The translations under genes were made by a program, and so were the position numbers. A stretch of DNA of 64,000 nt from Aurelia coerulea. Its lineage: Eukaryota > Cnidaria > Scyphozoa > Semaeostomeae > Ulmaridae. Shown here piece by piece: positions 1,009 to 57,740 of this stretch (its first letter is position 1; each line of letters begins with the position of its first letter). The stretch spans positions 10,115,896-10,179,895 of the forward strand of contig CM076957.1 in NCBI GenBank assembly GCA_039566865.1, written 5' to 3'. The notes beneath the pieces were generated by a model that made no database searches, was not told where the DNA came from, and worked only from the letters and a program-made list of their open reading frames with translations.

Positions 1009-1939
1009 CAACATGAGTCGCCACTAAGAACGGGCCTAAATTGTGTGCATGAAACGGCGCCGATTTCTGCTTTCGAATCCTAACCTTCCGCTTCATCCTT
1101 CTCAAAAACACTTTCTCCAGGGGATAAAACTTCATTGACCTCAGTGGACGAATTGTAATTCCTATTAAAATAGGTATTTCAAAACACTTCTCCTTAGGAA
1201 CTTTCTCTAAAAACCCCTTCGAAAGAACGTTCATGACCATAAGCCAAACGGTAAACAAATCACAACAGTCAACAAAATGGACCTGCTGACACTAAAACCA
1301 CAATAACTCGAAATTTTAGAATGAACACCCCATAAACATTTGACACCATTGGAAAGTGGATCCTTTAAAGGCATTGCGCCCATATAAATAGCTGAGCGTA
1401 ACGCTATCCTGAATTTTGCTGACAAACTGCTGATGGCCCTTTGTTATCGCATAATAGTGCCAAAGTCATTTGCAGTGGAAACCAAACACTTCTTAATCCT
1501 TGCATTATCCTCAGGAATTTCTTTGGTTTGATTTCGATAACGATTGAATCACACCTTTTGTTTTATGATTGAAAAGATGTTGATATTGGTCATGAACATA
1601 TCACAATTGTTCCATTTAACTGTCAATGCTACCCAGGAGAATTACATCATCTCTCCAGAACGACAGATGTCGTCAATTGGGAAACAACACCTTGTGATGC
1701 AAATGACAATTGTCGCTTACGGGGAAATAAAACTGGGCAAAAATGATGACAAATGTCGCTTATAGGGATGAATGAGTTAAGAGGAAAATTGATTGAATGT
1801 GTGACTCTGATAACAAGGTCCTAAACGAAAAAAGAGACTAGATGGGGAGTTTTTTTCTAGCTGCTTGAAAACCTCTCACAAACAAAGCTGTCAACAATAA
1901 CAAATGCATATCGAGTTACTGTAATAACCTTTTGCTTCC
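1009..1939. other. Downstream flank of the Staufen-like gene, no gene seen
   Basis: Between the pogo-like element and the stop codon of the minus-strand Staufen-like exon I see no convincing coding region on either strand. This interval should hold the 3' UTR of that gene. I could not fix a polyadenylation site. Confidence 0.4.
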
Positions 1940-2119
1940 TCAGTCATCTTTTTCAGTCTTGACAGCTACTTTAGAAAATCCAGTATGTGCTAAGCAGGCC
2001 AAGGCTTTTGCAGCAGCATCCTCACGCGAGGCCTCAACCTTTTCCCCCATTCCTTGGAAGACAGCAGGAGGTACAGTGAACAGAGCTACATGGCTTGTAA
2101 ATGGCTCGGAATCGGTTCT
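1940..2119 (-). CDS. STAU: Staufen-like dsRNA-binding protein, terminal coding exon (dsRBD5 C-half)
   Basis: This minus-strand exon starts after a TTTTAG acceptor (2121-2120) and runs 60 codons to TGA (1942-1940). It reads RTDSEPFTSHVALF, then VPPAVFQGMGEKVEASRED and AAAKALACLA. It continues in phase 0 from the exon ending at 2640. Joined at the junction FNDYGK/RTDSEP, it gives the alpha-beta-beta-beta-alpha layout of a dsRNA-binding domain. The order of motifs (DY-K, then F-S-V-L, then PP, then G-G-E-S, then AA-AL-L) matches the last domain of animal Staufen, known to bind Miranda in flies and to support dimerisation or decay-factor binding in vertebrates. About 20 residues follow the domain. 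Staufen proteins bind dsRNA to localise, translate or degrade mRNA. The family call is from residue pattern, not a search. Confidence 0.72.
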   Translation of the reverse strand, partial: RTDSEPFTSHVALFTVPPAVFQGMGEKVEASREDAAAKALACLAHTGFSKVAVKTEKDD

Positions 2120-2639
2120 CTAAAACAACAATATATTCAATGAAAATTTCATGACAACAACTAACCTGGAAAATTCCTCAACAACATGTTATTTAATGAT
2201 ACCCATGACTAAATAGCAACTCTTCAAGCAACAACCTTCAAATATAAAGCTTTCATACCGGGTGCGCAAAATAAGTTAAGGTGTGTGAAATTTTGTAGCA
2301 CTAAGACGACTGGATGGTGTATGGATTGCTAGGATCCAAATTGTGCTTGATAGCCAGACACTAAAGTGTTTTTGTGATATTGCTGCTATCCTTGGGCAAT
2401 GCTGATACTTAAATTCGATTTACGAAAAAATCATTGTTGCAATTGTATGAAAAGGCCCTAGTACTGAAGAATGCGCAAGGCTATTTCATCTCCCACAAGA
2501 AGCATAGTAGATGCCTTTCTAAACAATAACTAAAAATTTCAATTCTCTCCTATGTGCCGACTATATCCTCCCTGTGGCAAGAATGCAGTCTCAAGTTCTA
2601 CTTTCAACTCTTGGGGAATAAAAAATGATATTCACCAAC
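2120..2639 (-). other. Intron of the Staufen-like gene
   Basis: The interval is bounded on the minus strand by a GT donor (2639-2638, context GGAAAG/GTTGGT) and an AG acceptor (2121-2120, context TTTTAG/AGAACC). It joins two exons in phase 0 and restores one continuous dsRBD. No other gene is seen inside. Confidence 0.65.
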
Positions 2640-2867
2640 CTTTCCATAATCATTGAATAAAAGCTTCAACCCTTCACGTTCTGCAAGAAATTGCAGTTTC
2701 TCGACATCTGTCATGTGAGCCATTTCACCACCCTGTAAATTGATACGGGTCTTTACTGGGCCACCAGGTGCCCTGTTCAGCATTTGTATGGCAGGTTTCT
2801 CTTCAAGCATCAGACTGCCAGGGTTGGAAGTGCTCTTTGGCATTCCGATGGCTGCACTCATATATGC
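2640..2867 (-). CDS. STAU: Staufen-like dsRNA-binding protein, penultimate coding exon (dsRBD5 N-half)
   Basis: The 228-nt exon (76 codons, phase 0 at both ends) has an acceptor ATCATAG at 2869-2868 and a donor AAG/GT at 2640. It encodes a low-complexity segment containing KPAIQMLNRAPGGPVKTRI and then the first helix and strand of a dsRBD, TDVEKLQFLAEREGLKLLF, ending NDYGK. The last part aligns by eye with the start of Staufen dsRBD5 (pattern LQ-L----G--L-F-DY-K). Together with the exon at 2119-1940 it completes the domain. The upstream exon is not adjacent; the nearest candidate is the linker-like block at 11372-11040. Confidence 0.7.
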
Positions 2868-3449
2868 CTATGATAAAGACAGTCAGTGATATGGAGAAAC
2901 CAGGCAAAACAGAGCTGAAATTGTCAAGCATGGAGTTAACGTTACTTCATCCCTTCAGTGACCACTCTCAGTGTTTTCTCTCTTGATTATTACATACACG
3001 ACACAACACGTATAAACAATACATCACTCGATTCGTCATTAAATGGGGAGTATTTATGAGTCAAAAAGAATACAATATCCAAGAACTGTGCACTATACAT
3101 CAAAAAACGCAAAAATTGGATCTTCCCCTTTCTACAACCTCCCTGTACCCCCATATATGTTTCACATAAACTTCAATGAGATTTTTGCATTCTCAACACA
3201 TCATCTAGCAAAGAGTGTCGCAGATTTACTTTATGTGTCTTTGCTGCAGAATAATTAATGAAAAGATTTTACCCTTCGCCCGCAGTCCTCATTTTTATAT
3301 TCATTCACATGTTCAATTTGAGCTACAACATTTTTCTCAAAAATGAGACACAGTTTCATCTCCCTATGCTTTTTCTGTCTGTCTACCAAATCTCAGCCAA
3401 TTAAGTTAGGCCGTTGGGAACAGGGAGGCGTATAAATATTTACTATGCG
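2868..3449. other. Probable Staufen-like intron sequence, no gene seen
   Basis: This is AT-rich sequence upstream of the penultimate exon on the minus strand. Short plus-strand frames here have no recognisable domain. Confidence 0.4.
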
Positions 3450-3585
3450 CATACTAACCGGTTTTGTGTTGTACAGGAAAATATAAAGCCCGAGGTCTTA
3501 AAAGTACAGACCGAGCTTGCGAGGTCTGTGCAATAAGACCGAGGGCTTTATATTTTCCTGTACAACTACAAAACCGGTTAGTATG
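3450..3585. repeat. Fold-back MITE, near-complete palindrome
   Basis: Two arms of about 50 bp face each other. The outer ends are CATACTAACCGG / CCGGTTAGTATG; the inner parts share GTTGTACAGGAAAATATAAA and a GAGGTCTTA-type end. The short centre is itself an inverted repeat (ACAGACC/GGTCTGT). Nearly all of the 136 bp can fold into one hairpin. No clear target duplication is seen, so the superfamily is not assigned. Confidence 0.6.
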
Positions 3586-4033
3586 AGTTTTATTAACTGA
3601 TAGCTTCTAATTTTGACTTATACCATTTAGTCAAACTCATTTTGTTACTGTTATGTCGTTTGAGTTCATTGTAAATCTCACAGGCCTAAATTAGTTGCTG
3701 TGGTGACAAAAACACGTCCTTGTATCGTATTATACAAGGCTACGGGAAAACCGCGGGAAATGTGCGATTAGCCAATGGGATTGGCGGGATTCTTGTATTG
3801 CCTCGTTTTTGAAACGTCAGTCAGGTAATAATGTTGCGTAAAATCTGATTTTGAGCAAAGGGCTGAAATAGCTTCTTAGCATAAAACCCACTGTTGTCAA
3901 TGTTGGACTTTTATCTGACCACTAAGTGAAACGAAGTAATCCTTTATATATTTACCGCAAAACCTATTCAACAGAACATCAAGGGCACTTGAAACCTTTG
4001 GTCACCAAATTTTCCTCCTTGTGTAAACAGTAG

Positions 4034-8221: not shown

Positions 8222-9081
8222 CAGAGCACAGTGATCCAGACTGTCAAAATTATGGAATAAATGCCAAAACACAAAATGTTGCAAATGCAAGAACTTTCAC
8301 ACCTACCATAGAGAGGACACTTTGAGCTATTCAGAACAAAAATCCGTATCGAAATCGGACTAACGACTGCAGAGAAATTGCACTTTGAAGTTGACAAAAA
8401 TTGCCAGGCCATGTTTTTGTTTACATTTCCGGTGTATCACTTTTTAAATGGGCCTAAACCAACAATTTCAAATTTTCATTTCTCCAGTTGTATTCGTCCG
8501 ATTTCAATAAACTTTTTTTTTAATTGACCCTCAATGTCTGCGCAATTATACAACGTATCAGTTCTATGAATTTACATCAATTTATTTGTTTATTTGGCAT
8601 ATATTTATCGAGGGGTATTTTTAGCAGTAGAACTACACGAGACCCCTAAATTTCTTCTTTCCTGGTGCAAACAAAAAAAGTGAGGAAAAAAGAGTCTTAA
8701 AAACTCATTTCGCACTAAACTTCAGGTATCGATGAAGGTTTCTGCCAAAGGGTTCGTTCAGGTTCGTACAGGTAAAAATTTTATAGCTGATATAAAAAAT
8801 CGAGTCATTTAGGCCCATGCATGCTATTTTCTGTCATTTTCCGTGATTAGAATGTATGTTTTGTTTCTGGGTGGTTCCATTGCATAATTTTCGTTTTACT
8901 TGCACAGCTGTAACAGCGAGGGTCTAAATTCTAAATAAAAAGAAGAATTATGTCATTACCTAACAAGCATATTAGCATTTACGTGGATCAAACGTAGTCT
9001 AGCCAACAAGCATTTTATGTCTACGACTTGGGGACACAAGGACCAAGTCCGAACTCCACCGTTCGATCTATCAACTATAGT

Positions 9082-9267
9082 TCATTTTTTCATGTTTGGA
9101 AAAAGAGTTTCTTCATGGTTTGATACAAAGAAAGTCTCATTCTCACATGCCTGAATTTGTTGCTTCAATTGATCGTGTCTAGCATGGGCAATATCTGGTG
9201 CAAATTTGATGAGCATCCAGACAAAGGGCCATGATTTACTGACACAGAACTTTTTCGCAGTCTGCAA
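9082..9267 (-). other. Conserved internal frame of the CACAGTG transposon
   Basis: A 61-codon minus-strand frame (QTAKKFCVSKSWPFVW near its start, ENETFFVSNHEETLF near its end) lies in the non-repeated centre of copy I. The same DNA is in copy II on the plus strand (about 45950-46160), where it is broken. I do not recognise it. It may be an exon remnant of a lost transposase or captured host DNA. Confidence 0.3.
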
Positions 9268-9916
9268 CCAAACGTTCCTCTAAATTTTCAGATGTACTTG
9301 TTCCACAAAAACTCTAATTGGATTATAAACCAAGAGGTTTTCTTTGAAGTGACAGTTTCAGTCTTCTAAATTGCAGATAACTTTTAGAATATAGTTTCAG
9401 TCTGTGCGATTCTGTGATCAGTTTCAACCTTAACCAAAAATAAATGTAAAGTTCCTTTGGATTTTTTACATTCAGCATTAGGTATTGAATAAAGAAATTT
9501 AAAGTGATAAATACACAGCCTATGGATTAACTATAAGTTCATAAAATTAATAATAACTATATAGTTTTTATCATTCCCCACGACATGTAATGAACCAAAA
9601 AGCTCAGGCTCGTGAGACCTTTTATTTGAAGTCCAAGATGAAATTAGTTTTTCAAGACTTAAACAACAGAAGCGTACTTTATAGACTAAAAGCCCAGGCG
9701 AGGGGGTTCTCAAATTTCTGGTCATTTAGGCATTTAGGGGAGTTTTGTCAGAAATTCTAGAAACGGGGTATACTTTCATAATCTTGTCGTGAATTTTCTG
9801 GTACTGGGGCTTATTATTTACGAAAAATTCTGACACTGTTTTGTTTCCCGTGACTTTAATGTTAGGTAATTTAAAGTCCTGCGAATGCTTTGTTTACATG
9901 AAACAAAAATATTGCA

Positions 9917-10150
9917 GTGGTTTTGCAGCGAAAAATTTTTTGTGAAAACGTAACTCGTATTCAAAGATTAGGTATGAAAATCTTCCCTAAATTCTGGGAT
10001 TGGGTCATGACAGAAATCCTTTTGCCGCACACCACACCTTCCTGTAACCTATTAGTGCAGTTTCCACGATCAAAAGATGGACCTCAAGCCCAAGCTTTGT
10101 ATCTTAACAGTCATAGACATCAGATGCTTGTTGCCGTGATTTTAGTGTAA
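9917..10150 (+). other. Conserved internal frame of the CACAGTG transposon, second block
   Basis: The 77-codon frame contains VTRIQRLGMKIFPKFWDWV and ends NSHRHQMLVAVILV. Copy II has the same frame on its minus strand (45336-45082) with only a few substitutions. Preservation in both copies is expected for recently related elements and does not prove that the frame is translated. No known domain is recognised. Confidence 0.35.
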
Positions 10151-11039
10151 ACCATGTTAAACCTGTGTACGATTCAAGTCATTTAAATGTTAATGTGATT
10201 GTTAGGTAATGAAATAATGCCTCTTTTTATTTAGAATTTAAACCCTCGCTATTAAAGCTGTGCAATTTAAACGAGAACTATGCATTGGAACCACCCAGAA
10301 AAAATATACATCCTATCATTGAAAATCACAGAAAATAGCACACATAGGCCTAAATGACTCGATTTTTTTATATCAGCTATAAAATTTTTACCTGTACGAA
10401 CCTGAACGAACCCTTTGGCAGAAACCTTCATCGATACCTGAAGTTTAGTGCGAAATGAGTTTTTAAGACTCTTTTTTCCTCACTTTTTTTGTTTGCACCA
10501 GGAAAGAAGAAATTTAGGGGTCTCGCGTAGTTCTACTGCTAAAAATACCCCTCGATAAATATATGCCAAATAAACAAATAAATTGATGTAAATTCATAGA
10601 ACTGATACGTTGTATAATTGCGCAGACATTGAGGATCAATTAAAAAAAAAGTTTATTGAAATCGGACGAATACAACTGGAGAAATGAAAATTTGAAATTG
10701 TTGGTTTAGGCCCATTTGAAAAGTGCTACACCGGAAATGTAAACAAAAACATGGCCTGGCAATTTTTGTCAACTTCAAAGTGCAATTTCTCTGCAGTCGT
10801 TAGTCCGATTTCTATACGGATTTTTGTTCTGAATAGCTCAAAGTGTCCTCTCTATGGTAGATTTGAAAATTTTTGTATTTGCAACTATTTGTGTTTTGGC
10901 ATTTATTCCATGCTCTGGATCACTGTGCAGAGAGGTGATCAATTCGATATAAATCTTTTAGGAGTAACGTCGGGAAAGTGCTATAATGAGCAACGAGGCA
11001 ATGGGCAACGAGGCCACTGAAATAAAGAAGGAATGTTAC

Positions 11040-12731: not shown

Positions 12732-12958
12732 CTACAATCACTTACAAAATTGTTGAGCCATCCTGAAAAAAATGAGTTTTTTGGCCCCACTTTCCCCCAT
12801 GTCAATGTTGTTTGGAAAAAAGTACTTGGTCATGCTGACAGACGTGGTTTGGCAACTTTTCAGTGGTTTTTCAGCATTAACTAGGGGGGAGGGGGAAAAG
12901 CAGAGGCAAAAACTGAAAATCTGAGGGTGGCTCAACAATTTTGTAAGTGATTGTCTGA
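12732..12958 (-). mobile_element. Palindromic MITE, subfamily A, copy 1
   Basis: Inverted ends CAATCACTTACAAAATTGTT enclose a ~220-bp element. One end extends as CTACAATC and the other as GATTGTCTGA, so the two termini are not identical. Copy 2 is at 15673-15899 in the opposite orientation; subfamily B is at 52140-52375 and 54317-54550. No target duplication is evident. Confidence 0.75.
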
Positions 12959-14506: not shown

Positions 14507-15231
14507 CAAGATGGTGCGCTGTGGTGAACTTGCTGCCATTTTGAAGTCGAACTGTCGAATTTTCAAATTTCCCGCGCTCACTCAAGTGCATAAATTCCCT
14601 TCTAAATACAACAATATGGGATATATTTTGTCGATTATGGAGGTAATTGTAGAACAATATGCTTTATAACTCGAAGATACAACTAACAGAGACTATGGAT
14701 GTTGTAAAGTCGTTCGGAAATTAAATTCCTTCTTTAAATGCGAGGCGTAGCAATGGTAAATTTAGGACGGCTGCAGGCCTACAAGTCTTCGGGCAGAGGG
14801 AAGTAATGGTAGACACGTTATCTGTTTAAAAGAGTCTGTATTTAAACGTGTATATTGCCATGTTTAACAAGATGGTGCGCTGTGGTGAACTTGCTGCCAT
14901 TTTGAAGTCGAACTGTCGAATTTTCAAATTTCCCGCGCTCACTCAAGTGCATAAATTCCCTTCTAAATACAACAATATGGGATATATTTTGTCGATTATG
15001 GAGGTAATTGTAGAACAATATGCTTTATAACTCGAAGATACAACTAACAGAGACTATGGATGTTGTAAAGTCGTTCGGAAATTAAATTCCTTCTTTAAAT
15101 GCGAGGCGTACCAATGGTAAATTTAGGACGGCTGCAGGCCTACAAGTCTTCGGGCAGAGGGAAGTAATGGTAGACACGTTATCTGTTTAAAAGAGTCTGT
15201 ATTTAAACGTGTATATTGCCATGTTTAACAA
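14507..15231. repeat. Tandem duplication, 2 x 361 bp
   Basis: Two head-to-tail copies start at CAAGATGGTGCGCTG (14507 and 14868). I saw one clear difference (GCGTAGCAATGG versus GCGTACCAATGG), so the event is very recent or the copies are being homogenised. A third start is recognisable only as CAAAATG at 15229. Confidence 0.9.
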
Positions 15232-15672
15232 AATGAATTTTCCAACTTCGAATTATCGTTTCCCAATGCATCAGTCTTTATGAAAGAAACAGGCAGATTC
15301 CGATGAATTACCCAATTTTTGAAAAGCACGCAGAAAATGGGAAGTTGTGCAGCTTCGCCATTTTCATTTAAAAATATAAGTTAGTAATTCAAAACGTTGA
15401 TTCGAATTTTACTAATGCAATAACAGTAAATATCTTGTCATGTACCAACGCCTCAGCTGCTTATTAAGAGATGTAGCCAACTAGGCCAATGGTGTAAAAA
15501 TAGCCAAAATGAGCATATTTTCTAAGGGACGCTGCGAGGCCGCACTAGCGTTCAAAAATTAAAAAAAAAAAAATTAGAGGACTGCCTTTATGCAATTATT
15601 GCCAGCCCTGTTAATTTGAAAGTATTTGAAGGAAAGACCTTAAAGTTATGACGCCTTAAAGGTACAACATTT

Positions 15673-15899
15673 TCAGACAATCACTTACACAATTGTTGAG
15701 CCACCCTGAAAAAAATGAGTTTTTTGGCCCCCCTTTCCCCCATGTCAATGTTGTTTGGAAAAAAGTACTTGGTCATGCTGACAGACGTGGTTTGGCAACT
15801 TTTCAGTGGTTTTTCAACATTAACTAGGGGGGAGGGGGAAAGCAGAGGCAAACAACTGAAAATCTGAGGGTGGCTCAACAATTTTGTAAGTGATTGTAG
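15673..15899 (+). mobile_element. Palindromic MITE, subfamily A, copy 2
   Basis: Begins TCAGACAATCACTTACAC and ends AAGTGATTGTAG. It shares the inner GGCCCCCCTTTCCCCCATG-type segment with the copy at 12732-12958, which is inverted relative to this one. Confidence 0.75.
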
Positions 15900-28671: not shown

Positions 28672-29202
28672 CTAAAAATCCCAAAACATGCCCCCGAAAG
28701 GGTCGTATGTATCTTTTAGTGTACGTCCAATAAATTCAAGTTTATCAAATAGATCATTTTTTACCAGATAAATTTCGTCAGCAACCAAAGCCTTAACTGT
28801 CATCCAGTTTTCCAGACAGCTTTTATTTGCCTGGACTTTCTTAACAAGCTTGTATTGCGATTCCTTTCCAAGCCCTATTCCTGCCCAGGAATGCAGAGTT
28901 CTGCCCCCTACGAGACTGGCTGCAATACCTGTCAACGCTGTAACAGCCACTGCATCTTCCCAAAGTATTTTCTTTAATGCTTCGATAACAGACAGCAGCG
29001 TGGTATTTGTTACGGAATGTGGTATTGGGCAAAGAACTTGCAAAACAACAAACAAAAGGTCAGGTCTATTTGTGTGTGCTTCTTTGTTCCGAGTTTTGTT
29101 TGGAATAACAGAAAATAAATTGTTTGTTTGAAATAATGCTTCCTTACAATATTTTCTTATATGCCTTGATGAAAGCAGTAGAATGCCAAGTTTTCCATGC
29201 AA
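28672..29202 (-). pseudogene. PIF1-like helicase fragment
   Basis: The minus-strand frame holds the middle of a PIF1/RRM3-family SF1B helicase: EDAVAVTALTGIAASLVGG, GRTLHSWAGIGLGKE, then a Walker B-like VADEIYLVKNDLFDKLEFI. Intact PIF1 proteins have DEISM at Walker B; here it reads DEIYL. Walker A should lie upstream but is not in the frame, and the protein breaks off after DPFGG, just before the expected strand with GDF-QLPP. PIF1 helicases unwind DNA and are also carried by Helitron-type elements. The flanking inverted arms suggest this one travelled as part of a repeat or lies in an inverted duplication. Confidence 0.75.
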
Positions 29203-30095
29203 AACCCCAGGGTGACCCCTTGAGTTAGCCTAATGACCCTTTGTAGATCAGAACAAAAAAGCCAAAAAATTGATGTCTTCTTATAAGAAACCGCTTATAA
29301 GAAACTGTAGGCTGAACAAATTACAATACCTGAATTAAAAAGCTGAGCAACTTTTGTAACTTGCAGCTTTTATTTTCCATGTAAACGATGAAAATGGCGT
29401 TGTCTGTGCTGTGCTAGCAGAAGGCAGCTCACAATTATTCTAGCATGGGCCAGGACACAAAATTAAAAATATATATTTTTCTATAAAATTATAAATCATA
29501 TAATTATGTCTTTTAACTAAGGCTCCTTTTTATAAAAAGTTGCCTCTCGCCCTGCTAGCCTTGCATCTGAATTTTACAAAAAAGGCATCTGTTAGTGCAG
29601 TAGCTAACCCATGAATATGACATCTTTGAAAAGACAGAGGGAAAACAATCGTTTATTGTTGATAAACAATAGGGTACCTGCCTTATGGGAAAACCACCAG
29701 GCGGAGAACGATAAGCCTTACAATGGTCCTCTGGCCATGGCCATGACCATTGTTAAACCTGTGTCCATGGTTTTGGGGAATGACCAAAGAGATATTTACG
29801 GGGGTTAAAAGATGTTATTTTTCATAAAAACATTTCTTCAAAATGACATAACTGGTTTTAGTTTAAGACCATATCATCGAATTTGCACGGTTTGTTTATA
29901 TACAGTAACCCCCGGATTTTCTTACAACTCCTCCTTGAAACCTCGTTTGGATGAAAAAAGAACAATAAGTCAGATTTATCGACTCCGTACAAACATTCCT
30001 TGAAATACTGCGTTCTGATTGGATAATCCAGCCCGTTGACTTACCCTTTCTTTCTTCCTCCTCCTCCGATCTCCCCTTCCATATCCCTTCGGTGC

Positions 30096-41182: not shown

Positions 41183-43485
41183 TTATAGATCATATTGCTG
41201 TCAATAATACAAGCAATATTGTGGAGTCTGGTGTTGTCAAAACCGCCATTAGTGATCATTATGTTGTTTACTCTGTAAGAAAGTATCAGGGTGGAATCAA
41301 GCATAATCATAAGCATATCCATACAAGACAGCTGAAAAACTTCAATAAAGAAGCTTTCTTAGCTGATCTTGATGCCGTTAACTGGTCAGCTATCTTAGTT
41401 TGTTCAGACGATATTAATGTGATAGTAGATAAATTTATGAAGACGCTATCTTTCGTAATTGAAAAGCATGCTCCCTCAATAGAGAGGCGAGTGTCAGAGA
41501 GGTACAGCCCTTGGCTATCTTCTGATTTAAAGGCTTTGTTTCGTACTAGAGACAGAATTAAAAGTGCAGCGGTCAAGGCAAAATCTGAAATATTAATGAA
41601 TGCTTATAGACAAGTTAGGAATCAGGCTAATGATATGAATTCTCGGTTAAAGAGAGAATACTTCACAAATAAACTTAACGAGTGTGAAGGCGACCTAAAG
41701 CAGACCTGGTCGACGGTCAACAAACTCATCAACAAGCGATCAAAGTCAACTCAAATCCAATCCCTAAAGGTGGATGACACAGTAATAAAGGATTCGGAAA
41801 GCATAGCTAATTCAATGAATGACTACTTCTGTTCTGTTGGTGACAAGTTAAGTAAAAAAATTCCTGACAAGGTGAATTCTCTTTTGAAAGGAGACATTGA
41901 CATAAATCCAACGGCTGCTCGTTTCACATTCTCACCAATGCAGCCTCGAGAGTTTATGAAAGCAATGAATAAATTTAAGACTTCACATGGGTCTGGCCTA
42001 GATCAAATTTCCAGCTTTTTCCTCAAGGCAGGAATGCCAATCTTAGCTCAGCCCCTGAGTCAACTATTTAACTTGTCTTTATCTTCAGGCCTGTTCCCTG
42101 ACAGTTGGAAGATAGCAAGGGTTGCACCAGTCTTTAAGAATGGTCCTACCGATGAAAGCTCTAATTATCGCCCAATTTCTGTCCTACCGGTTGTCTCTCG
42201 CCTCTTTGAGAAACTAATTTATGACCAGCTGTACAATTACCTTGATTCCAACAAACTTGTTTTTGGAAAACAATCAGCATACAGACGGTTGCATTCTGTT
42301 CTGTCATGTTTGCTTAAATGCACAAATGATTGGTACTTGAATTTAGAGGGTGGTAAATATACAGCAGTTACCTTTGTAGATCTCAAAAAGGCTTTCGACA
42401 CCGTAAATCATGAAATATTATTGCAAAAACTAGAGCTATATGGTATTCATAATAAAGAACTGAAATGGTTCCGCTCTTATTTAACTAATAGAAAACAGTG
42501 CTGTAAGGTTAATGGGAAGCTTTCAAATATCGAATCTATAACCTGTGGAGTACCGCAAGGGTCCTGTCTAGGGCCTCTGCTATTTATCATATATATCAAT
42601 GACCTTCATCTACATATGAAACATTGTGACGTTAATATGTATGCTGACGACACAAGCCTTATGTTTGCGTCGGATTCAGTTACACATATTAACGATTGCG
42701 TCAACGATGACTTGGGTAACTTGAAATCTTGGCTACAAGGTAATAAATTATCCCTTAATGTTGCTAAAACACAAAGTCTTGTTGTTGGCAGCAGAAAGCG
42801 ACTGAAAGATATAAGTGATGATAGAGTAGCAAAGCCCACTTTCATGGTGGGTGAGGAGAATGTTGCCCTCGTAGAAAATATAAAATACCTTGGGGTAATT
42901 GTTGATAAACATTTGAGCTGGGACGAGCAAATTTCAGCAGTGACGAAAAAGGTTTCACGAGGATTAGGGATGCTACGTTTCTCCAAAAAGTATTTACCCA
43001 TTGTTACTGTACAGAAAATGTACAGAAGTTTAGTGGAACCCTACCTCAGATATAGCTGCCCGGTGTGGGGAGTTTCTGGCATCAATGCTATAAATAGGTT
43101 GCAAAAACTCCAAAATAGGGCGGCAAGAATAGTCACAAACAGTGCTTATGATGCTTCAGCTCTACCCATCATTAGAAAACTTGGTTGGCCCACCATCAAC
43201 GAGCTTATCAATTCAGAAACTTTAAAAATGGTGTACAAGTCGGTAAATGACCTAGCTCCCACTTACCTAACAGAAATGTTCGTCAGGCTATCCGATTCAT
43301 GCAAGAGAGAACTGCGCAATACCAAAACAGATTTGGCCGTTCCTCTTCGCAAATCGGCCTTCGGACAAAAGAGCTTCTCGTATAAGGGTGCTAAATTGTG
43401 GAACGATCTTTCCATCGAAATCAAATCATCAAAAACTTATGAAACATTCAAAAAAAGAATCAGCAATACCAACAGCGAATGCTGA
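41167..43485 (+). CDS. Non-LTR retrotransposon endonuclease C-end plus reverse transcriptase (copy A)
   Basis: An uninterrupted 772-codon frame; its first residues (MMMMM) come from the GAT tail of the upstream element, so the natural start is lost by 5' truncation. Residues 8-40 are the end of an APE-type endonuclease (HIAVNNTS, TAISDHYVVYSV). The RT follows: NYRPISVLPVVSRLFEKLI, FVDLKKAFDTVNHEILLQ, GVPQGSCLGPLLFIIYINDL, catalytic YADD at residues 492-495, YLGVIVDKHLSWDEQI in the thumb and a C-terminal SFSYKGAKLWNDL. All RT motifs look intact. It makes cDNA by target-primed reverse transcription in an active element. Copy B at 56476-57700 is nearly identical. Confidence 0.9.
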   Translation: MMMMMFIDHIAVNNTSNIVESGVVKTAISDHYVVYSVRKYQGGIKHNHKHIHTRQLKNFNKEAFLADLDAVNWSAILVCSDDINVIVDKFMKTLSFVIEKHAPSIERRVSERYSPWLSSDLKALFRTRDRIKSAAVKAKSEILMNAYRQVRNQANDMNSRLKREYFTNKLNECEGDLKQTWSTVNKLINKRSKSTQIQSLKVDDTVIKDSESIANSMNDYFCSVGDKLSKKIPDKVNSLLKGDIDINPTAARFTFSPMQPREFMKAMNKFKTSHGSGLDQISSFFLKAGMPILAQPLSQLFNLSLSSGLFPDSWKIARVAPVFKNGPTDESSNYRPISVLPVVSRLFEKLIYDQLYNYLDSNKLVFGKQSAYRRLHSVLSCLLKCTNDWYLNLEGGKYTAVTFVDLKKAFDTVNHEILLQKLELYGIHNKELKWFRSYLTNRKQCCKVNGKLSNIESITCGVPQGSCLGPLLFIIYINDLHLHMKHCDVNMYADDTSLMFASDSVTHINDCVNDDLGNLKSWLQGNKLSLNVAKTQSLVVGSRKRLKDISDDRVAKPTFMVGEENVALVENIKYLGVIVDKHLSWDEQISAVTKKVSRGLGMLRFSKKYLPIVTVQKMYRSLVEPYLRYSCPVWGVSGINAINRLQKLQNRAARIVTNSAYDASALPIIRKLGWPTINELINSETLKMVYKSVNDLAPTYLTEMFVRLSDSCKRELRNTKTDLAVPLRKSAFGQKSFSYKGAKLWNDLSIEIKSSKTYETFKKRISNTNSEC

Positions 43486-43677
43486 TTCTCTCCTTCATGC
43501 ATTACTTTTAATTTGCTTATTAGATTGTTTTGTAAATAAGATTATTTAATTTTGTATGCTTTTCTTTTAATTTAGTTATTGTATGTATTTGCACGGCCCA
43601 CTGTAAATCAGTCCTTTGACTGACGTGGCTACCGTGCCTAAAGAAGTTAAAATCAAATCAAATCAAATCAAATGATG
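41183..43677 (+). mobile_element. 5'-truncated non-LTR retrotransposon, copy A
   Basis: The element runs from the junction with the (GAT)n tail to its own tail of AATCA pentamers (about 43651-43672). GATGATGAT-type sequence occurs on both sides, consistent with a target duplication made by insertion into the upstream element's microsatellite. The copy B tail has more AATCA units. Confidence 0.8.
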
Positions 43678-44302
43678 ATGATTGATTTGAGGCGCGGGGC
43701 GTGGGATGGTGGGTGGAGTGATGGGGTTGGTGGGGTGCTCGTCGGGTGTTTGTGGCCTGTCCCGTGGGGTGTTGGTTTGGTTTTTTGGGGGCTGTTTCGG
43801 GGATCGGTGGGTCGGGGAGATTGAGGGTGGTTCGTTTCCGGGCATCGGGCTCGGGGGCGGATTGATCCCTCGGTTTCCTTGTTTTGCTGGTCTTTGGGCT
43901 GCTGCCTCGGGGTCGGGCTGGCATCGCATTGGTGTTTGGGGGGCATGTTGCGGATGTTCGGTGGGTGTTCCGTCGTTCCGTCGTCCCGTTCCATCGTTCT
44001 GTGTCCCGTGTTTGAGGATAGCCGAGACTTTCTCTAAAACAGTGTTCCCACTGGCAGCAAGAGAAATGCTTTTAATCCAATGCCCTTAGGACTCGCTGAG
44101 TACCCCAAATGGTTTGGAAACCTTGTGTTATTAATTCTGTTGATATTATCTGTAATTTTCCTTTTTTCCTCGTCGTATCAATGTTATCCTGATTTTCTTT
44201 TCAGTTTTCGGTATTGTCGCTTTGTAAGTCGTGCTAATGGTGGTTTCATTGAGGTATATTGTCCCTTAGGACCAGCGGGAAGATTTCATCATTATGATGC
44301 CG
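43678..44302 (+). other. GC/GT-rich leader, likely 5' part of the 2A-type retroelement
   Basis: A G/T-rich stretch (43690-44000) is followed by a frame with a hydrophobic run (LVLLILLILSVIFLFSSS, 44080 on). The CACAGTG transposon then interrupts, and after it the 2A-type retroelement starts at once. The leader is therefore probably the element's 5' UTR. Proline-rich frames on the minus strand here are shadows of this base composition. Confidence 0.45.
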
Positions 44303-47009
44303 CACAGTGATCCAGAGCATGGAATAAATGCCAAAACACAAATAGTTGCAAATGCAAAAACTTTCACACCTATCATAGAGAGGACACTTTGAGGTATTCA
44401 GAACAAAAATCCGTATAGAAATCGGACCAACTACTGCAGAGAAATTGCACTTTTAAGTTGCCAAAAATTGCCAGGCCATGTTTTCGTTCACATTTCCGGT
44501 GTATCACTTTTGAAATGGGCCTAAACCAACAATTTCAAATGTTCATTTCTCCAGTTGTATTCGTCCGATTTCAATAAAAAAATTTTTAAATTGACCCTCA
44601 ATGTCTGCGCAATTATACAACGTATCAGTTCTATGAATTTACATCAATTTATTTAATTTATTTGGCACATATTTGTCAAGGGGTATTTTTAGCAGTAGAA
44701 CTACTCAAGACCCCAACATTTTTTCTTTCCTGGTGCAAACAAAAAAAGTGAGGAAAAAAGAGTCTTAAAAACTCATTTCGCACTAAACTTCAGGTATCGA
44801 TGAAGGTTTCTGCCAAAGGGTTCGTTCAGGTTCGTACATGTAAAAATTTTATAGCTGATATAAAAAATCGAGTCATTTAGGCCTATGTATGCTATTTTCT
44901 GTGATTTTCAATGATAGTATGTATATTTTTGTTCTGAGTGTTTCCAATGCATAGTTTTCGTTTTAATTGCACAGCTTTAATAGCGAGGGTTTAAATTCTA
45001 AATAAAAAGAGGCATTATTTCATAACCTAACAATCACATTAACATTTAAATGACTTGAATCGTACACGGGTTTAACATGGTTTACACTAAAATCACGGCA
45101 ACAAGCATCTTATGTCTATGACTGTTAAGATACAAAGCTTGGGCTTGAGGTCCATTTTTTGATCTTGGATACTGCACTAATAGGTTACAGGAAGGTGTTG
45201 TGTGCGGCAAAAGGATTTCTGTCATGACCCAATCCCAGAATTTAGGGAAGATTTTGATACCTAATCTTTGAATACGAGTTACGTTTTCACAAAGAAAAAT
45301 TTTCGCTGCAAAACCACTGCAATATTTTTGTTTCACGTAAACAAAACATTAGCAGGACTTTAGATTACCTAACATTAAAGTCACAGGAAACAAAACAGTG
45401 TCAGAATGTTTCGTAAATGATAAGCCCCAGTACCAGAAAATTCACGACAAGATTATGAAAGTATACCCCGTTTCTAGAATTTCTGACAAAAACTCCCCTA
45501 AATGCCTGTATGACCAGAAATTTGAGAACCCCCTCGCCTGGGCTTTTAGTCTATAAAGTGCACTTCTGTTGTATAAGTCTTGAGAAACCAACTTCATCTT
45601 GGACTTCAAATTAAAGGTCTCACGAGCCTTAGCTTTTTGGTTCATTACATGTCGTGGGCAATGATAAAAACTATATAGTTATCATGAATTTTATGAACTT
45701 ATAGTTACTCCATAGGCTGTGTATTTATCACTTTATCTTTCTTTATTCAATACCTAATGCTGAATTTAAAAAATCCAAAGGAACTTTACATTTAGTTTTG
45801 GTTAAGGTTGAAACTGATTACAGAATCGCACAGACTGAAACTATATTCTAAAAGTTATCTGCAGTTTAGAAGACTAAAACTGTCACTTCAAAGAAAACCT
45901 CTTGGTTTATAATCCAATTAGAGTTTTTGTGGAACGAGTACATCTGAAAATTTAGAGGAACTTTTTTGGTTGCAGACTGTGCAAAAGTTTTGTGTCAGTA
46001 AATCATGGCCCCTTTGTCCGGATGCTCATCAAATTTGCACCAGATATTCCCCATGCTAGACACGATCCATTGAAGCGACAAATTTAGGCATGTGAGAATG
46101 AGACTTTCTTTGCATCAAACCAAGAAGAAGCGCTTTTTCCAAACATGAAAAAATGAACTATAGTTAATAGATCGAATGGTAGAGTTTGGACTTAAGCCTA
46201 GTGTTCCCAAGTCATAGACATAAAATGCGTGTCGGCTAGACTACGTTTGATCCACTTAAATGCTAATATGCTTGTTAGGTAATGACATAATTCCTCTTTT
46301 TATTTAGAATTTAAACCCTAGCTATTACAGCTCTGCAATCAAAACGAAAATTATGCCATGGAACCACCCAGCAACAAGAGATACATTCTAATCACGGAAA
46401 ATGACAGAAAATAGCATACATGGGCCTAAATGACTCGATTTTTTATATCAGCTATAAAATTTTTACCTGTACGAACCTGAACGAACCCTTTGGCAGAAAC
46501 CTTCATCGATACCTGAAGTTTAGTGCGAAATGAGTTTTTAAGACTCTTTTTTCCTCACTTTTTTTGTTTGCACCAGGAAAGAAGAAATTTAGGGGTCTTG
46601 AGTAGTTCTACTGCTAAAAATACCCCTCGATAAATATATGCCAAATAAACAAATAAATTGATGTAAATTCATAGAACTGATACGTTGTATAATTGCGCAG
46701 ACATTGAGGGTCAATTTAAAAAATTTTTTATTGGAATTGGACGAATACAACTGGAGAAATGAAAATTTGAAATTGTTGGTTTAGGCCCATTTTAAAAGTG
46801 ATACACCGGAAATGTAAACAAAAACATGGCCTGGCAATTTTTGTCAACTTAAAAGTGCAATTTCTCTGCAGTAGTTGGTCCGATTTCTATACGGATTTTT
46901 GTTCTGAATACCTCAAAGTGTCCTCTCTATGATAGGTGTGAAAGGTTTTGCATTTCCAACGTTTTTTTTTGGCATTTATTCCATAATTTTGACAATCTGG
47001 ATCACTGTG
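44303..47009. mobile_element. Transib/RAG-like non-autonomous transposon, copy II (CACAGTG ends, 5-bp TSD)
   Basis: This 2,707-bp element, inverted relative to copy I, starts CACAGTGATCCAGAGCATGG and ends in the complementary long-type terminus. It is flanked by the 5-bp direct repeat TGCCG (44298-44302 and 47010-47014). TIRs are about 800 bp. The short end is on the left here and on the right in copy I, while the central sequence is also inverted, so the end types are fixed features of the family. Removing it rejoins the upstream leader to the 2A-type retroelement. Confidence 0.75.
45082..45336 (-). other. Conserved internal frame of the CACAGTG transposon (copy II)
   Basis: 84 codons, with VTRIQRLGIKIFPKFWDWV and a C-terminal NSHRHKMLVAVILV, the counterpart of 9917-10150. 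Only conservative changes separate the two versions (e.g. M/I, F/Y, D/N, Q/K). No domain recognised. Confidence 0.35.
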
Positions 47010-52139: not shown

Positions 52140-52375
52140 CTACAATCAATCAGTTGCAAAATTGTTGAGCCATTGACAAAAAATAAGGTTTTTTGCCCCC
52201 CCCCCTCCCCCCGTTGCAATGTTGATTGGAAACAAACGCGACTTTTCTGTTGGCACCTAACGATTCATAACTTTTCCGACTTATTTCAACATTGCAAAGG
52301 GGGGACGGGGGGCACAGTGCCAAAAAAACCATATTTTTTTAGAATGGCTCAACAATTTTGCAACTGATTGTCTGA
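52140..52375 (-). mobile_element. Palindromic MITE, subfamily B, copy 1
   Basis: Ends CAGTTGCAAAATTGTTGAGC inverted, a long C run near 52196-52211 and a G-rich complement near 52300. One end reads CTACAATC, the other GATTGTCTGA. An extra ATCA has been inserted or duplicated at the left tip. Confidence 0.75.
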
Positions 52376-54316: not shown

Positions 54317-54550
54317 TCAGACAATCAGTTGCAAAATTGTTGAGCCATTGACAAAAAATAAGGCTTTTTGCCCCCCCCCCCCACTCCCCCCGTTGCAATG
54401 TTGATGGGAAACAAACGCGACTTTTCTGTTGGCAACTAACGATTTACAACTTTTCCGACTGATTTCAACATTGCAAAGGGGGACGGGGGGCACAGTGCCA
54501 AAAAAACCATATTTTTTAGAATGGCTCAACAATTTTGCAACTGATTGTAG
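54317..54550 (+). mobile_element. Palindromic MITE, subfamily B, copy 2
   Basis: Begins TCAGACAATCAGTTGC and ends CAACTGATTGTAG, inverted relative to 52140-52375 and close in sequence (shared ACAAACGCGACTTTTCTGTT). Confidence 0.78.
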
Positions 54551-54651
54551 CTATACCTATATATATACAAATAAAAACTTGGTAAAATATATAACTAGAA
54601 ACTTGATGTAGAGAGGTTGGACGACAAAAAATACTATAAGCTATGTTTTAA

Positions 54652-54692
54652 CACACTGAGGCCTTTCGGACTTGTGTCCTCATCAGAGTATG
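54652..54692 (-). ncRNA. Hammerhead ribozyme, minus strand
   Basis: The mirror image of the plus-strand motif: CTGATGA at 54686-54680, GAAA at 54667-54664, stem III AGGCCT at 54664-54659 and predicted cleavage after 54658 on the minus strand. Transcripts of either orientation would carry one ribozyme. Confidence 0.85.
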
Positions 54693-54702
54693 ATTTCGAA
54701 AT

Positions 54703-54743
54703 CATACTCTGATGAGGACACAAGTCCGAAAGGCCTCAGTGTG
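54703..54743 (+). ncRNA. Hammerhead ribozyme, plus strand
   Basis: CTGATGA (54709-54715) is followed by a 4-bp stem II GGAC/GTCC (54716-54719 with 54724-54727, loop ACAA), then GAAA (54728-54731). Stem III is the loopless palindrome AGGCCT (54731-54736), followed by C17 (54737), the predicted cleavage site. Stem I is CATACT (54703-54708) with AGTGTG (54738-54743), six pairs including one G-U. All conserved core bases are present. Because stem III has no loop, two molecules would have to pair for efficient cleavage, as known for short-stem-III hammerheads of animal retroelements. Confidence 0.85.
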
Positions 54744-54904
54744 TTAAAACATAGCTTATAGTATTTTTTGTCGTCCAACCTCTCTACATCAAGTATATAC
54801 AAATATATACACATACAACTAATCTAAATTGAATCTACTAACAAACGGAAAAATAACTGAGGAAATTAATACGTAAATACAGAAGATAAATATCAAAACT
54901 ACAT

Positions 54905-57740
54905 GGGCATAAATGGACAAAATCTACATGATTTCATTATATTTACAAGCGTTGCATTTACAGGTGGTGCCATTCCATTGTTTTATCATGCTTTTGGAAC
55001 TGTTGAGATTGTCAGCTGATTTTAGTTCATTTGGCAAACAGTTCCAGATCTGAGGTTCAACGGCTTTAAGGCTCTTAGAACCAAAAGTTACCTAATTTGG
55101 TCGAAATTGATTTAAATTGTTGGTATTCCGAGATGGATGCTTTGACGTTCTTGAACTAAAAATGTTATGCATAAAGATGGATTCGAATTTTTATTGTCAA
55201 AAATATTTAAACACAGAGGGTTCTCTGACGAGCAACTTGCATTGTGCATTTTTTTACCTAAGAAGAAGATCATCATAGGAACTTTTATGATCAATGTACA
55301 GAAATCTTAACGCACGTTCCTGTATTATTTCAATTTCCTGAACTGATTTTGAAGATGAAAAGTACCAAAGTAAAGGACAGCAGTTAAAATTAGAATACAC
55401 AAAGCTTTGAACCAAAACTTTTTTTCAGCAAAACCAATAAATGACTTAAATCACTTAAGAGCGTTTAGTTGTGCCGCTGCGTTTTTGCAAAGGTTTGATA
55501 TGTGTGGATCAAAGCTCAATTTATAATCTACTGTTACACCTAAGAAGTTTAACAGTCTCCTCAGATTTGATAGAATGTCTTTGGAAATCTAGATTCATGC
55601 CACAAGTGTTTGTCTGGTCGTTTTTTTAACAAAAAGAGCATGGAATTTGTTAGGGTTAGCAATCATTTCATTTTGGTCGAACCAAAACAAAGCGTTGTCT
55701 GCTTCACTTTCCAAAACCTTGACAAGATCCGGCAAGGACTTGGAAAAAGAAAGCTAGTGTGTTGTCGTCAGCATAATTGTACATGGATGCTTGCTTTATG
55801 AAAGAGAAAAAATCATTTATGTAGAAGTTGAAAAGAATAGGACCGAACACTGATCCTTGGGGTACCCCTGAAACAATTTCTTGAAAAGAACTGTAGACAT
55901 TATATATCCGGACACTCTGCTTCCGTCTGTTCAGATAGGAATAGAGAAGAACCAATGGATTTTCATCAAAGCCATATGCATGAAGTTTGGCTATAATCAA
56001 ATTGTGCGGGATGCAATCAAAAGCCTTTGATAGATCAATTAAGACGGACCCTACAAAAAAATTATCATCTAGCTTAGATTTCCATTCTTCTACAAGTATA
56101 ATTGAAACATGCTTTGTACTGTAGGCTGTTCTATAAGCTGCAATAAAGATCGAAAGGGTCTTATCAAGGAAGGGGCTGAGCTGTTCCTTTAGAATATTTT
56201 CAAAGATTTTGGAAAAAGTGTTAAGTACACTGACTGGACGATAATTCCTCTCCACAGTACGGACGGGTTTCGCTTTGTCTAAAGGGCAGACAGCAGCAGT
56301 TTTTGCATTCTGGGGAGAAATAAAATTTCGAATGCTGCAATTGATGGCGTTGGTAAGAGGGACAGCCAAATCACCGCTAGCCAGAGAAATAAGTTTTGGT
56401 GGAATTTGATCAACACCTGTTGATATACCGCCACCGGATACTTTCAATTGGAGCCATATAACTAGCAGTAACCTCATTTGATTTGATTTGATTTGATTTG
56501 ATTTGATCTTAACTTCTTTAGGCACGGTAGCCACGTCAGTCAAAGGACTGATTTACAGTGGGCCGTGCAAATACATACAATAACTAAATTAAAAGAAAAG
56601 CATACAAAATTAAATAATCTTATTTACAAAACAATCTAATAAGCAAATTAAAAGTAATGCATGAAGGAGAGAATCAGCATTCGCTGTTGGTATTGCTGAT
56701 TCTTTTTTTGAATGTTTCATAAGTTTTTGATGATTTGATTTCAATGGAAAGATCGTTCCACAATTTAGCACCCTTATACGAGAAGCTCTTTTGTCCGAAG
56801 GCCGATTTGCGAAGAGGAACGGCCAAATCTGTTTTGGTATTGCGCAGTTCTCTCTTGCATGAATCGGATAGCCTGACGAACATTTCTGTTAGGTAAGTGG
56901 GAGCTAGGTCATTTACCGACTTGTACACCATTTTTAAAGTTTCTGAATTGATAAGCTCGTTGATGGTGGGCCAACCAAGTTTTCTAATGATGGGTAGAGC
57001 TGAAGCATCATAAGCACTGTTTGTGACTATTCTTGCCGCCCTATTTTGGAGTTTTGCAACCTATTTATAGCATTGATGCCAGAAACTCCCCACACCGGGC
57101 AGCTATATCTGAGGTAGGGTTCCACTAAACTTCTGTACATTTTCTGTACAGTAACAATGGGTAAATACTTTTTGGAGAAACGTAGCATCCCTAATCCTCG
57201 TGAAACCTTTTTCGTCACTGCTGAAATTTGCTCGTCCCAGCTCAAATGTTTATCAACAATTACCCCAAGGTATTTTATATTTTCTACGAGGGCAACATTC
57301 TCCTCACCCACCATGAAAGTGGGCTTTGCTACTCTATCATCACTTATATCTTTCAGTCGCTTTCTGCTGCCAACAACAAGACTTTGTGTTTTAGCAACAT
57401 TAAGGGATAATTTATTACCTTGTAGCCAAGATTTCAAGTTACCCAAGTCATCGTTGACGCAATCGTTAATATGTGTAACTGAATCCGACGCAAACATAAG
57501 GCTTGTGTCGTCAGCATACATATTAACGTCACAATGTTTCATATGTAGATGAAGGTCATTGATATATATGATAAATAGCAGAGGCCCTAGACAGGACCCT
57601 TGCGGTACTCCACAGGTTATAGATTCGATATTTGAAAGCTTCCCATTAACCTTACAGCACTGTTTTCTATTAGTTAAATAAGAGCGGAACCATTTCAGTT
57701 TGAAAGAAAATGATTCAAAAGTATGTTCAGGGTCTTAGAC
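54905..57740 (-). pseudogene. Older non-LTR RT element (C), interrupted by copy B
   Basis: Reading the minus strand, coding DPEHTFESFSF (before 57701) continues after copy B as VTASYMAPIES and STGVDQIPPKLISLASGD. It goes on through NYRPVSVLNTFSKIFENIL, SVLIDLSKAFDCIPHNLIIA, GVPQGSVFGPILFNFYINDF and YADDNTL (frame 56460-55704). After frameshifts come LLGVTVDYKLSFDPHIS, SIVYSNFN-type thumb and an ending WNCLPNELKSADNL to CKCNACK near 54905. Catalytic YADD is kept. The endonuclease region is missing, and upstream of 57740 the sequence changes to an unrelated repeat. Confidence 0.8.
56476..57700 (-). mobile_element. 5'-truncated non-LTR retrotransposon, copy B
   Basis: Starts (minus strand) at AACTGAAATGGTTCC (57700), equivalent to position 42464 of copy A, and ends in AATCA pentamers (56507-56476). 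Its RT segment includes YADDTSLMFASDSV. I saw almost no differences from copy A apart from one missing A (GCAAAACTCC versus GCAAAAACTCC), which shifts the frame after NRLQ. It is inserted inside the RT domain of element C. Confidence 0.88.

Follow-up and report, generated by a model that had tools for sequence, protein, structure and literature searches.

A perfect palindrome in the Aurelia coerulea genome is probably an extremely short Penelope-like element inserted head to head

Penelope-like elements (PLEs) of the rotifer Adineta vaga, as described in the available portion of PMC3846280, carry head-to-head inverted pLTRs with palindromes at the junctions, a single short tail and target site duplications of 8-10 bp; a TATA/initiator pair similar to the one considered below is also described in the rotifer pLTR. 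For Poseidon PAc, a PLE of Anolis, the accessible part of PMC11167929 reports that, in vitro, both target strands are cut and extended, two start sites enclose the tail, and the start site is the same for both strands; within that part of the source, cut-site reads were not detected and cleavage was dispensable in vitro. Animal retrozymes, according to the accessible sections of PMC7229834, consist of direct tandem repeats of ~150-450 bp with a type I hammerhead, and the same sections give more than 6000 type I motifs for the coral Acropora millepora, most of them minimal and PLE/Terminon-like.

Here we analyse a stretch of 64,000 nucleotides (hereafter, the window; C15:10115896-10179895) from the A. 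coerulea genome assembly (574 Mb, 294 contigs). A palindromic locus within it is most readily explained as an ordinary, extremely short PLE twin insertion of 220 bp, in which both target ends were primed and the two cDNA ends were joined at TTCGAA; we put the probability of this reading, as a whole, at about 85%. The locus resembles the A. vaga elements, in the available portion of PMC3846280, in its inverted repeats, junction palindrome, single tail, AT-rich targets and GIY-YIG association, but consists of two truncated ends alone (220 bp), has a spacer-free centre, and follows a rule of one tail per insertion that holds at 23 of 23 loci. With PAc, so far as PMC11167929 is accessible, it has in common a minimal hammerhead motif in the terminal repeat and AT-rich targets and, in the order of events proposed below, two start sites separated by the tail and the cutting and extension of both strands. 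By the same source, the PAc ORF begins at stem II, whereas the hammerhead here is seen downstream of the ORF stop and a 5' repeat was not found; in A. coerulea, unlike in PAc, three insertions end at the predicted cut. Animal retrozymes, in the sections of PMC7229834 at hand, are alike in their type I hammerhead, low G+C content, lack of coding capacity and duplications longer than 4 bp, but the unit in A. coerulea is inverted and non-tandem. An animal retrozyme was rejected as the identity of the locus, which contains no tandem repeat and has inverted arms.

Positions 54601-54697 are the exact reverse complement of 54698-54794, forming 97-nt arms with no mismatch and no spacer. The perfect, spacer-free palindrome at 54601..54794 reported in the first-pass annotation is thus real, as judged by exact reverse-complement comparison of 97+97 nt. 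It is the sole perfect inverted repeat in the window with arms of at least 14 nt and a spacer of at most 8 nt, and the chance of 97 pairs at one centre has a log10 of about -56. The inserted unit (54574-54793, 220 bp) exceeds the palindrome: its left arm is tailed, and a 12-bp duplication flanks the unit on both sides. From left to right, the locus comprises one copy of the target site duplication, TATATACAAATA (54562..54573), abutting the insert; the 28-nt PLE 'tail', which extends the left arm at its 3' end (54574..54601, minus strand, where it reads TTTCTAGTTATATATTTTACCAAGTTTT) and is identical in other copies of the element; the left arm, a 3'-terminal part of the PLE (54602..54697, minus strand); the untailed right arm (54698..54793, plus strand), which is the exact reverse complement of the left arm and terminates in CTCTACATCAAG; and the right copy of the duplication, TATATACAAATA (54794..54805), again abutting the insert. 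Given this layout, the outermost pair of the palindrome, 54601/54794, is part of the tail on one side and of the duplication on the other. The centre, GATTTCGAAATC (54692..54703), includes TTCGAA (54695-54700), a natural palindrome of the source that is common to both cDNA ends. Of 5000 local Markov simulations, a fraction of 0.0024 gave a 12-bp match at the insert edge, and an abutting match of this length was found at 4 of 20000 random window places and at none of the 43 AT-rich places that could be tested.

The PLE identity was first derived from the anatomy and the literature, and a genome search afterwards tested it. The arm is repeated in the genome, with at least 44 matches at 100% identity, 43 of these over all 97 nt, when 40 of 537 candidates were scored; the search listed perfect matches, and the window's own arms are absent from them. 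There are at least 110 exact tailed 3' ends in the genome, many nearly identical where inspected. In an autonomous relative, L087, an open frame of 602 amino acids (1913-3721, plus strand) ends 90 bases before the arm (3812-3908). This frame combines a GIY-YIG domain above the cutoff (1913-3718, plus strand; 31.8 bits, cutoff 22.6) with a reverse transcriptase match below it (RVT_1, 18.5 bits, cutoff 29.6), and YMDD and TAMGTKFAP-like motifs were recognised in it by eye, so that the fusion of reverse transcriptase to GIY-YIG that characterises PLEs is found here with one of its two domains below the cutoff. L087 is itself a head-to-head twin, in which 401-1974 and 2335-3908 form a 1574-nt inverted repeat of 100% identity. 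The last 1950 nt of its right copy serve as the reference below (ref; ref1950 is the G of CATCAAG), and the left arm of the window, over 99 nt including the 3 common at the centre, is 100% identical to ref1852-1950. No full-length copy was found among the stretches fetched, the longest copies starting inside the element, and no PLE open frame was detected in the window (20 of the 74 frames of at least 90 amino acids in a Pfam search, plus a motif scan). By these sequence comparisons, the palindrome arm is identified as the 3' end of a PLE. The earlier view of the locus as a head-to-head remnant of a ribozyme-bearing retroelement was right, and genome copies, the GIY-YIG frame and the tail allow the element to be named.

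Inverted terminal repeats with a single tail, another PLE trait, were found at 13 of 13 loci and then at 8 and 2 further distinct loci. Twenty stretches were sampled, 10 of which had been picked because their arms paired; 12 were two-armed and 8 one-armed (7 tailed, 1 untailed). Together with the window, all 13 two-armed loci were single-tailed (8 with the tail on the left, 5 with it on the right); the second arm is short in L093 (20 nt) and L094 (27 nt). Among the head-to-head junction loci described below, 11 of 15 could be resolved and 11 of 11 were one-tailed, 8 of them new, whereas L106, L107, L109 and L113 have one end that is not resolvable and are therefore outside the 11. The cut-site loci L134 and L135 were one-tailed by script and bring the distinct two-armed loci resolved in this way to 23, each with a single tailed arm; L136, with an indel in the tail, is one-tailed by eye and has TAGATACTATA on both sides. 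A short duplication at an AT-rich target, as in PLEs, is present in the window (12 bp), and clear duplications of 11-15 bp were found at 16 of the 23 script-resolved loci. Six others lie in simple repeats, where the duplication is ambiguous (L081, L082, L088, L094, L108 and L135), and L084 is without a clear one. The PLE ends at 54787-54793 (plus strand) and 54574-54582 (minus strand) have in common CAAG before TTT (CATCAAG/TTTC and ACCAAG/TTTT), 24 nt apart in the source; judging from this resemblance, CAAG before TTT may select two start sites of reverse transcription.

At the position of the centre, the source reads CATTCGAAATC, which contains TTCGAA, and longer copies extend upstream as AGAATCATTCGAAATCATACTCTGAT. 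In alignment, each of the two window arms reaches ref1852, with TTCGAA as their overlap, so that a meeting of two cDNA ends at this hexamer would leave a spacer-free centre. A census of head-to-head junctions near the hammerhead, with spacers of 0-30, returned 17 in the genome (15 of which were fetched) and none in the reversed control. The mirrored arrangement had been noted as unusual, a judgement that does not hold given these 17 junctions and the PLE repeats of this kind already published (available portion of PMC3846280); the palindrome is a minor instance of something that PLEs are known to do. The exact centre of the window recurs, being found at three sites in all (C8:19155566, the window on C15, and C20:1599406), each with a 220-bp insert. 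Because the duplications differ (15, 12 and 14 bp, respectively) and the flanks have no similarity, the three are separate insertions; the arms of the other two, L102 and L111, differ at two and one sites. In L106, L107 and L113 (C17:3223409, C17:5593704 and C20:9810213), the flanks are 97-99.7% alike, and these count as one event: the twin insertion there probably sits inside another repeat, since it was multiplied together with its flanks.

The following order of events would produce this anatomy. A short RNA of ~130 nt would be initiated in the terminal region of the element, at a TATA/initiator-like start a little upstream of the hammerhead, and would extend into the tail. At an AT-rich target, the PLE enzyme would make staggered cuts, 12 bp apart, in the two strands, and reverse transcription would be primed from both target ends on RNA of the same source, the distal start site giving the tailed arm and the proximal one the untailed arm. 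Both arms stop at the same source position, with the six-base source palindrome TTCGAA in common, and joining of the two cDNA ends there would result in a perfect palindrome with no spacer. TATATA at ref1822 and TCATTC at ref1849, ~29 bases apart from first T to A, resemble a TATA box and an initiator. Among the 29 arms of the first 20 of the 110 tailed ends, 10 start at ref1842-1856, including those of the one-armed inserts L114, L120, L123, L124 and L126, and 2 at ref1893-1897, both in L128. The window arms look like run-off copies of an RNA extending from this putative start to the tail.

The two arms of one locus are nearly alike. Their overlaps in L085, L086, L087, L088 and L122 are 597, 742, 1573, 288 and 523 nt long and contain 1, 0, 0, 1 and 2 differing sites, respectively, none of which is common with another locus. 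Over ref1440-1829, same-locus arms show 1, 0, 0 and 2 differences, and 101 different-locus pairs a median of 4 (range 0-10, with 6 pairs at zero). Across 22 loci compared, after omission of L099, L101, L107, L113, L119, L130 and L132 as duplicates, 10 are without and 12 with arm differences, at 22 differing sites in total. At five sites in the short-arm loci L100, L102, L108 and L112, the rarer state recurs in one other locus, which could reflect two source RNAs or repeated mutation. The near-identity of arms within a locus suggests a common origin for both, be it a single RNA, different RNAs of the same source copy, or a single cDNA.

Each arm contains a candidate minimal type I hammerhead with the conserved core and stems I and II, and with a stem III that is the loopless AGGCCT alone. 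On the plus strand (54703..54743), the motif reads as stem I of 6 bp, CATACT/AGTGTG (54703-54708/54738-54743), CTGATGA (54709-54715), stem II of 4 bp, GGAC-ACAA-GTCC (54716-54727), GAA (54728-54730), AGGCCT (54731-54736) and C17 (54737), after which the cut is predicted. Its mirror on the minus strand (54652..54692) has C17 at 54658 and a predicted cut between 54658 and 54657. The strict descriptor matched these two in the window and had no match in 150 first-order Markov simulations (64 kb, both strands). The hammerhead motif on both strands described earlier is confirmed as a sequence feature, with core and stems I and II located by descriptor; by descriptor and by its position beside the 3' end, it is a candidate for the minimal hammerhead of a PLE terminal repeat, and the hammerhead is the PLE's own. 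The Rfam hammerhead models, to which the first-pass annotation had pointed, found no match at gathering scores across the window, and searches with 600 bp and with 63 bp from a single arm were likewise without a match at E<=10. Other Rfam matches, to microRNAs and sRNAs, were set aside as long-hairpin matches under gathering scores. The proposed short stem III and cleavage as dimers are in line, by analogy, with Lunse et al. 2017, judged by its title, according to which small PLE hammerheads with a tiny stem III reportedly cleave as dimers; the likeness in stem III and in PLE association is drawn from that title. A pattern scan of prokaryotic genomes gave 70 matches (~97 expected by a simple estimate), with both stems in 1 of the 70, and a scan of viral contigs gave none.

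The 194-nt transcript is predicted to fold into a single hairpin (-175.4 kcal/mol), compared with about -9 to -10 kcal/mol for the 46-nt hammerhead. As the transcript grows, 13 of the 15 arm pairs possible at 54712 are predicted to have formed, and 37 of 39 at 54736. The suggestion that the unit gives self-cleaving RNA whichever strand is transcribed thus fares poorly: the antisense arm would be made first and is predicted to pair with the emerging ribozyme. Because the transcript forms one long hairpin, the hammerhead of this locus is probably an inactive relic; no indication of an independent function was seen, and self-cleavage from either strand is unlikely according to the folding model. 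From the cut site to the centre, each window arm has another 40 nt on the upstream side (43 nt in the source), so this insert was copied from uncut RNA.

The window contains several other repeats. A 2.7-kb element is present twice in opposite orientation (8227-10928 and 44302-47009; 94.7% identical), with inverted terminal repeats of ~730 bp (8252-8981/10184-10911 and 44319-45052/46253-46984). A 1.2-kb LINE reverse transcriptase segment also occurs twice in opposite orientation (42458-43673 and 56486-57700), the copies being recent, as they are 99.75% identical. The window holds LINE-type reverse transcriptase frames; among the 120 relatives listed for one of them, identity reaches 92%, with 39% for the anemone Exaiptasia diaphana. 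Foldback (MITE-like) elements of ~225 bp, whose inverted arms match imperfectly, form a family with members at 54322-54548, 52147-52371, 12734-12954 and 15677-15897, the first of which adjoins the palindrome on the left. Two tandem copies of a 361-bp unit, 99% alike, occupy 14507-15235, and a PIF1-like helicase fragment (28675-29229) is perhaps derived from a Helitron.

The palindrome might alternatively have arisen by snap-back, with a single cDNA folding at TTCGAA and copying itself before it was linked to the opposite end of the target. Junction palindromes of rotifer PLEs have been interpreted in print as products of self-priming, although the available portion of PMC3846280 places it on the antisense template for head-to-head copies. 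A common source of same-locus arms, the near symmetry of whole inserts at several loci and the sequence of the C6 junction (L080) fit snap-back as well. However, a loopless hairpin cannot form, and a folded cDNA would have no primer at junctions that contain filler or lack shared bases (for example, L085, L101, L104 and L135). The presence of one tailed and one untailed arm at each resolved locus is directly explained by two start sites. The one-tail rule and these joins favour two priming events, and we regard snap-back as rather unlikely, if worth keeping in view. Some observations do not sit easily with a PLE twin insertion either: the window is without a PLE open frame, RVT_1 in L087 is below the cutoff, L084 has no clear duplication, 8 of the 20 sampled stretches are one-armed, and the Anolis PLE start site, alike on both strands in vitro, departs from the one-tail rule.

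Near-perfect palindromic MITEs are common, and the window holds the foldback family noted above (54322-54548), so that a palindromic DNA transposon or foldback element, with a hammerhead-like motif in its terminal inverted repeats by chance, has to be considered. Yet the symmetric edges of the palindrome bear no duplication, only a 2-bp TA three bases outside, and its ends, a single one of them tailed, are those of the GIY-YIG retroelement, which makes this origin highly improbable. Hardly more credible is a gene for dsRNA or small RNAs, or a ribozyme unit selected for functional RNA from either strand. The perfect 97-bp hairpin and the weak Rfam microRNA matches on both strands would fit such a gene, but those matches are below gathering scores, as expected of any long hairpin, the hairpin masks the ribozyme, and the structure recurs as separate insertions, as for a mobile element. 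Spacer-free perfect palindromes are also a known type of artefact; an error of sequencing or assembly is nevertheless scarcely believable where a tail and a 12-bp duplication bracket the palindrome and two other target sites, with duplications of their own, hold the same structure.

Other PLE twin insertions in the genome may carry a trace of ribozyme activity. The predicted cut after 54737 corresponds to the bond between ref1894 and ref1895, and a scan for head-to-head junctions over about nine positions (~ref1890-1898) returned three loci, all at the cut. At C16:11966450, AACACACT meets AGTGTGTT, with both ends exactly at the cut; at C4:1932668 and C20:18403602, one end is exactly at the cut and the other one base short. 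The three loci have no common flanks, and control scans over stem II (~ref1871-1877) and 3' of the cut (~ref1898-1903) each returned 0 junctions. These junctions, at three loci, are suggestive of a possible in-vivo footprint of ribozyme cleavage. We lean towards the view that twin insertions record the 5' ends of their templates and that these ends are of two discrete kinds, an uncut start at ~ref1850 and the exact cut at ref1895; cleavage would then take place in vivo, and cut as well as uncut RNAs would be copied, with priming on both strands of the target during a single event. No report of PLE insertions ending at a hammerhead cut site was recognised in searches of open-licence literature, which does not establish its absence from print.

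The route to inverted PLE copies and the action of the hammerhead in the cell are both treated as open in the accessible parts of PMC3846280 and PMC11167929, and the set of sister insertions carries more weight here than the palindrome alone. If the view of junctions as template ends is true, a minimal dimer-type hammerhead would cleave in vivo, and cut and uncut RNAs would both be templates. With at least 110 tailed 3' ends in the A. coerulea genome, counts of junctions, tails and duplications can address both the inverted-copy and the hammerhead questions.
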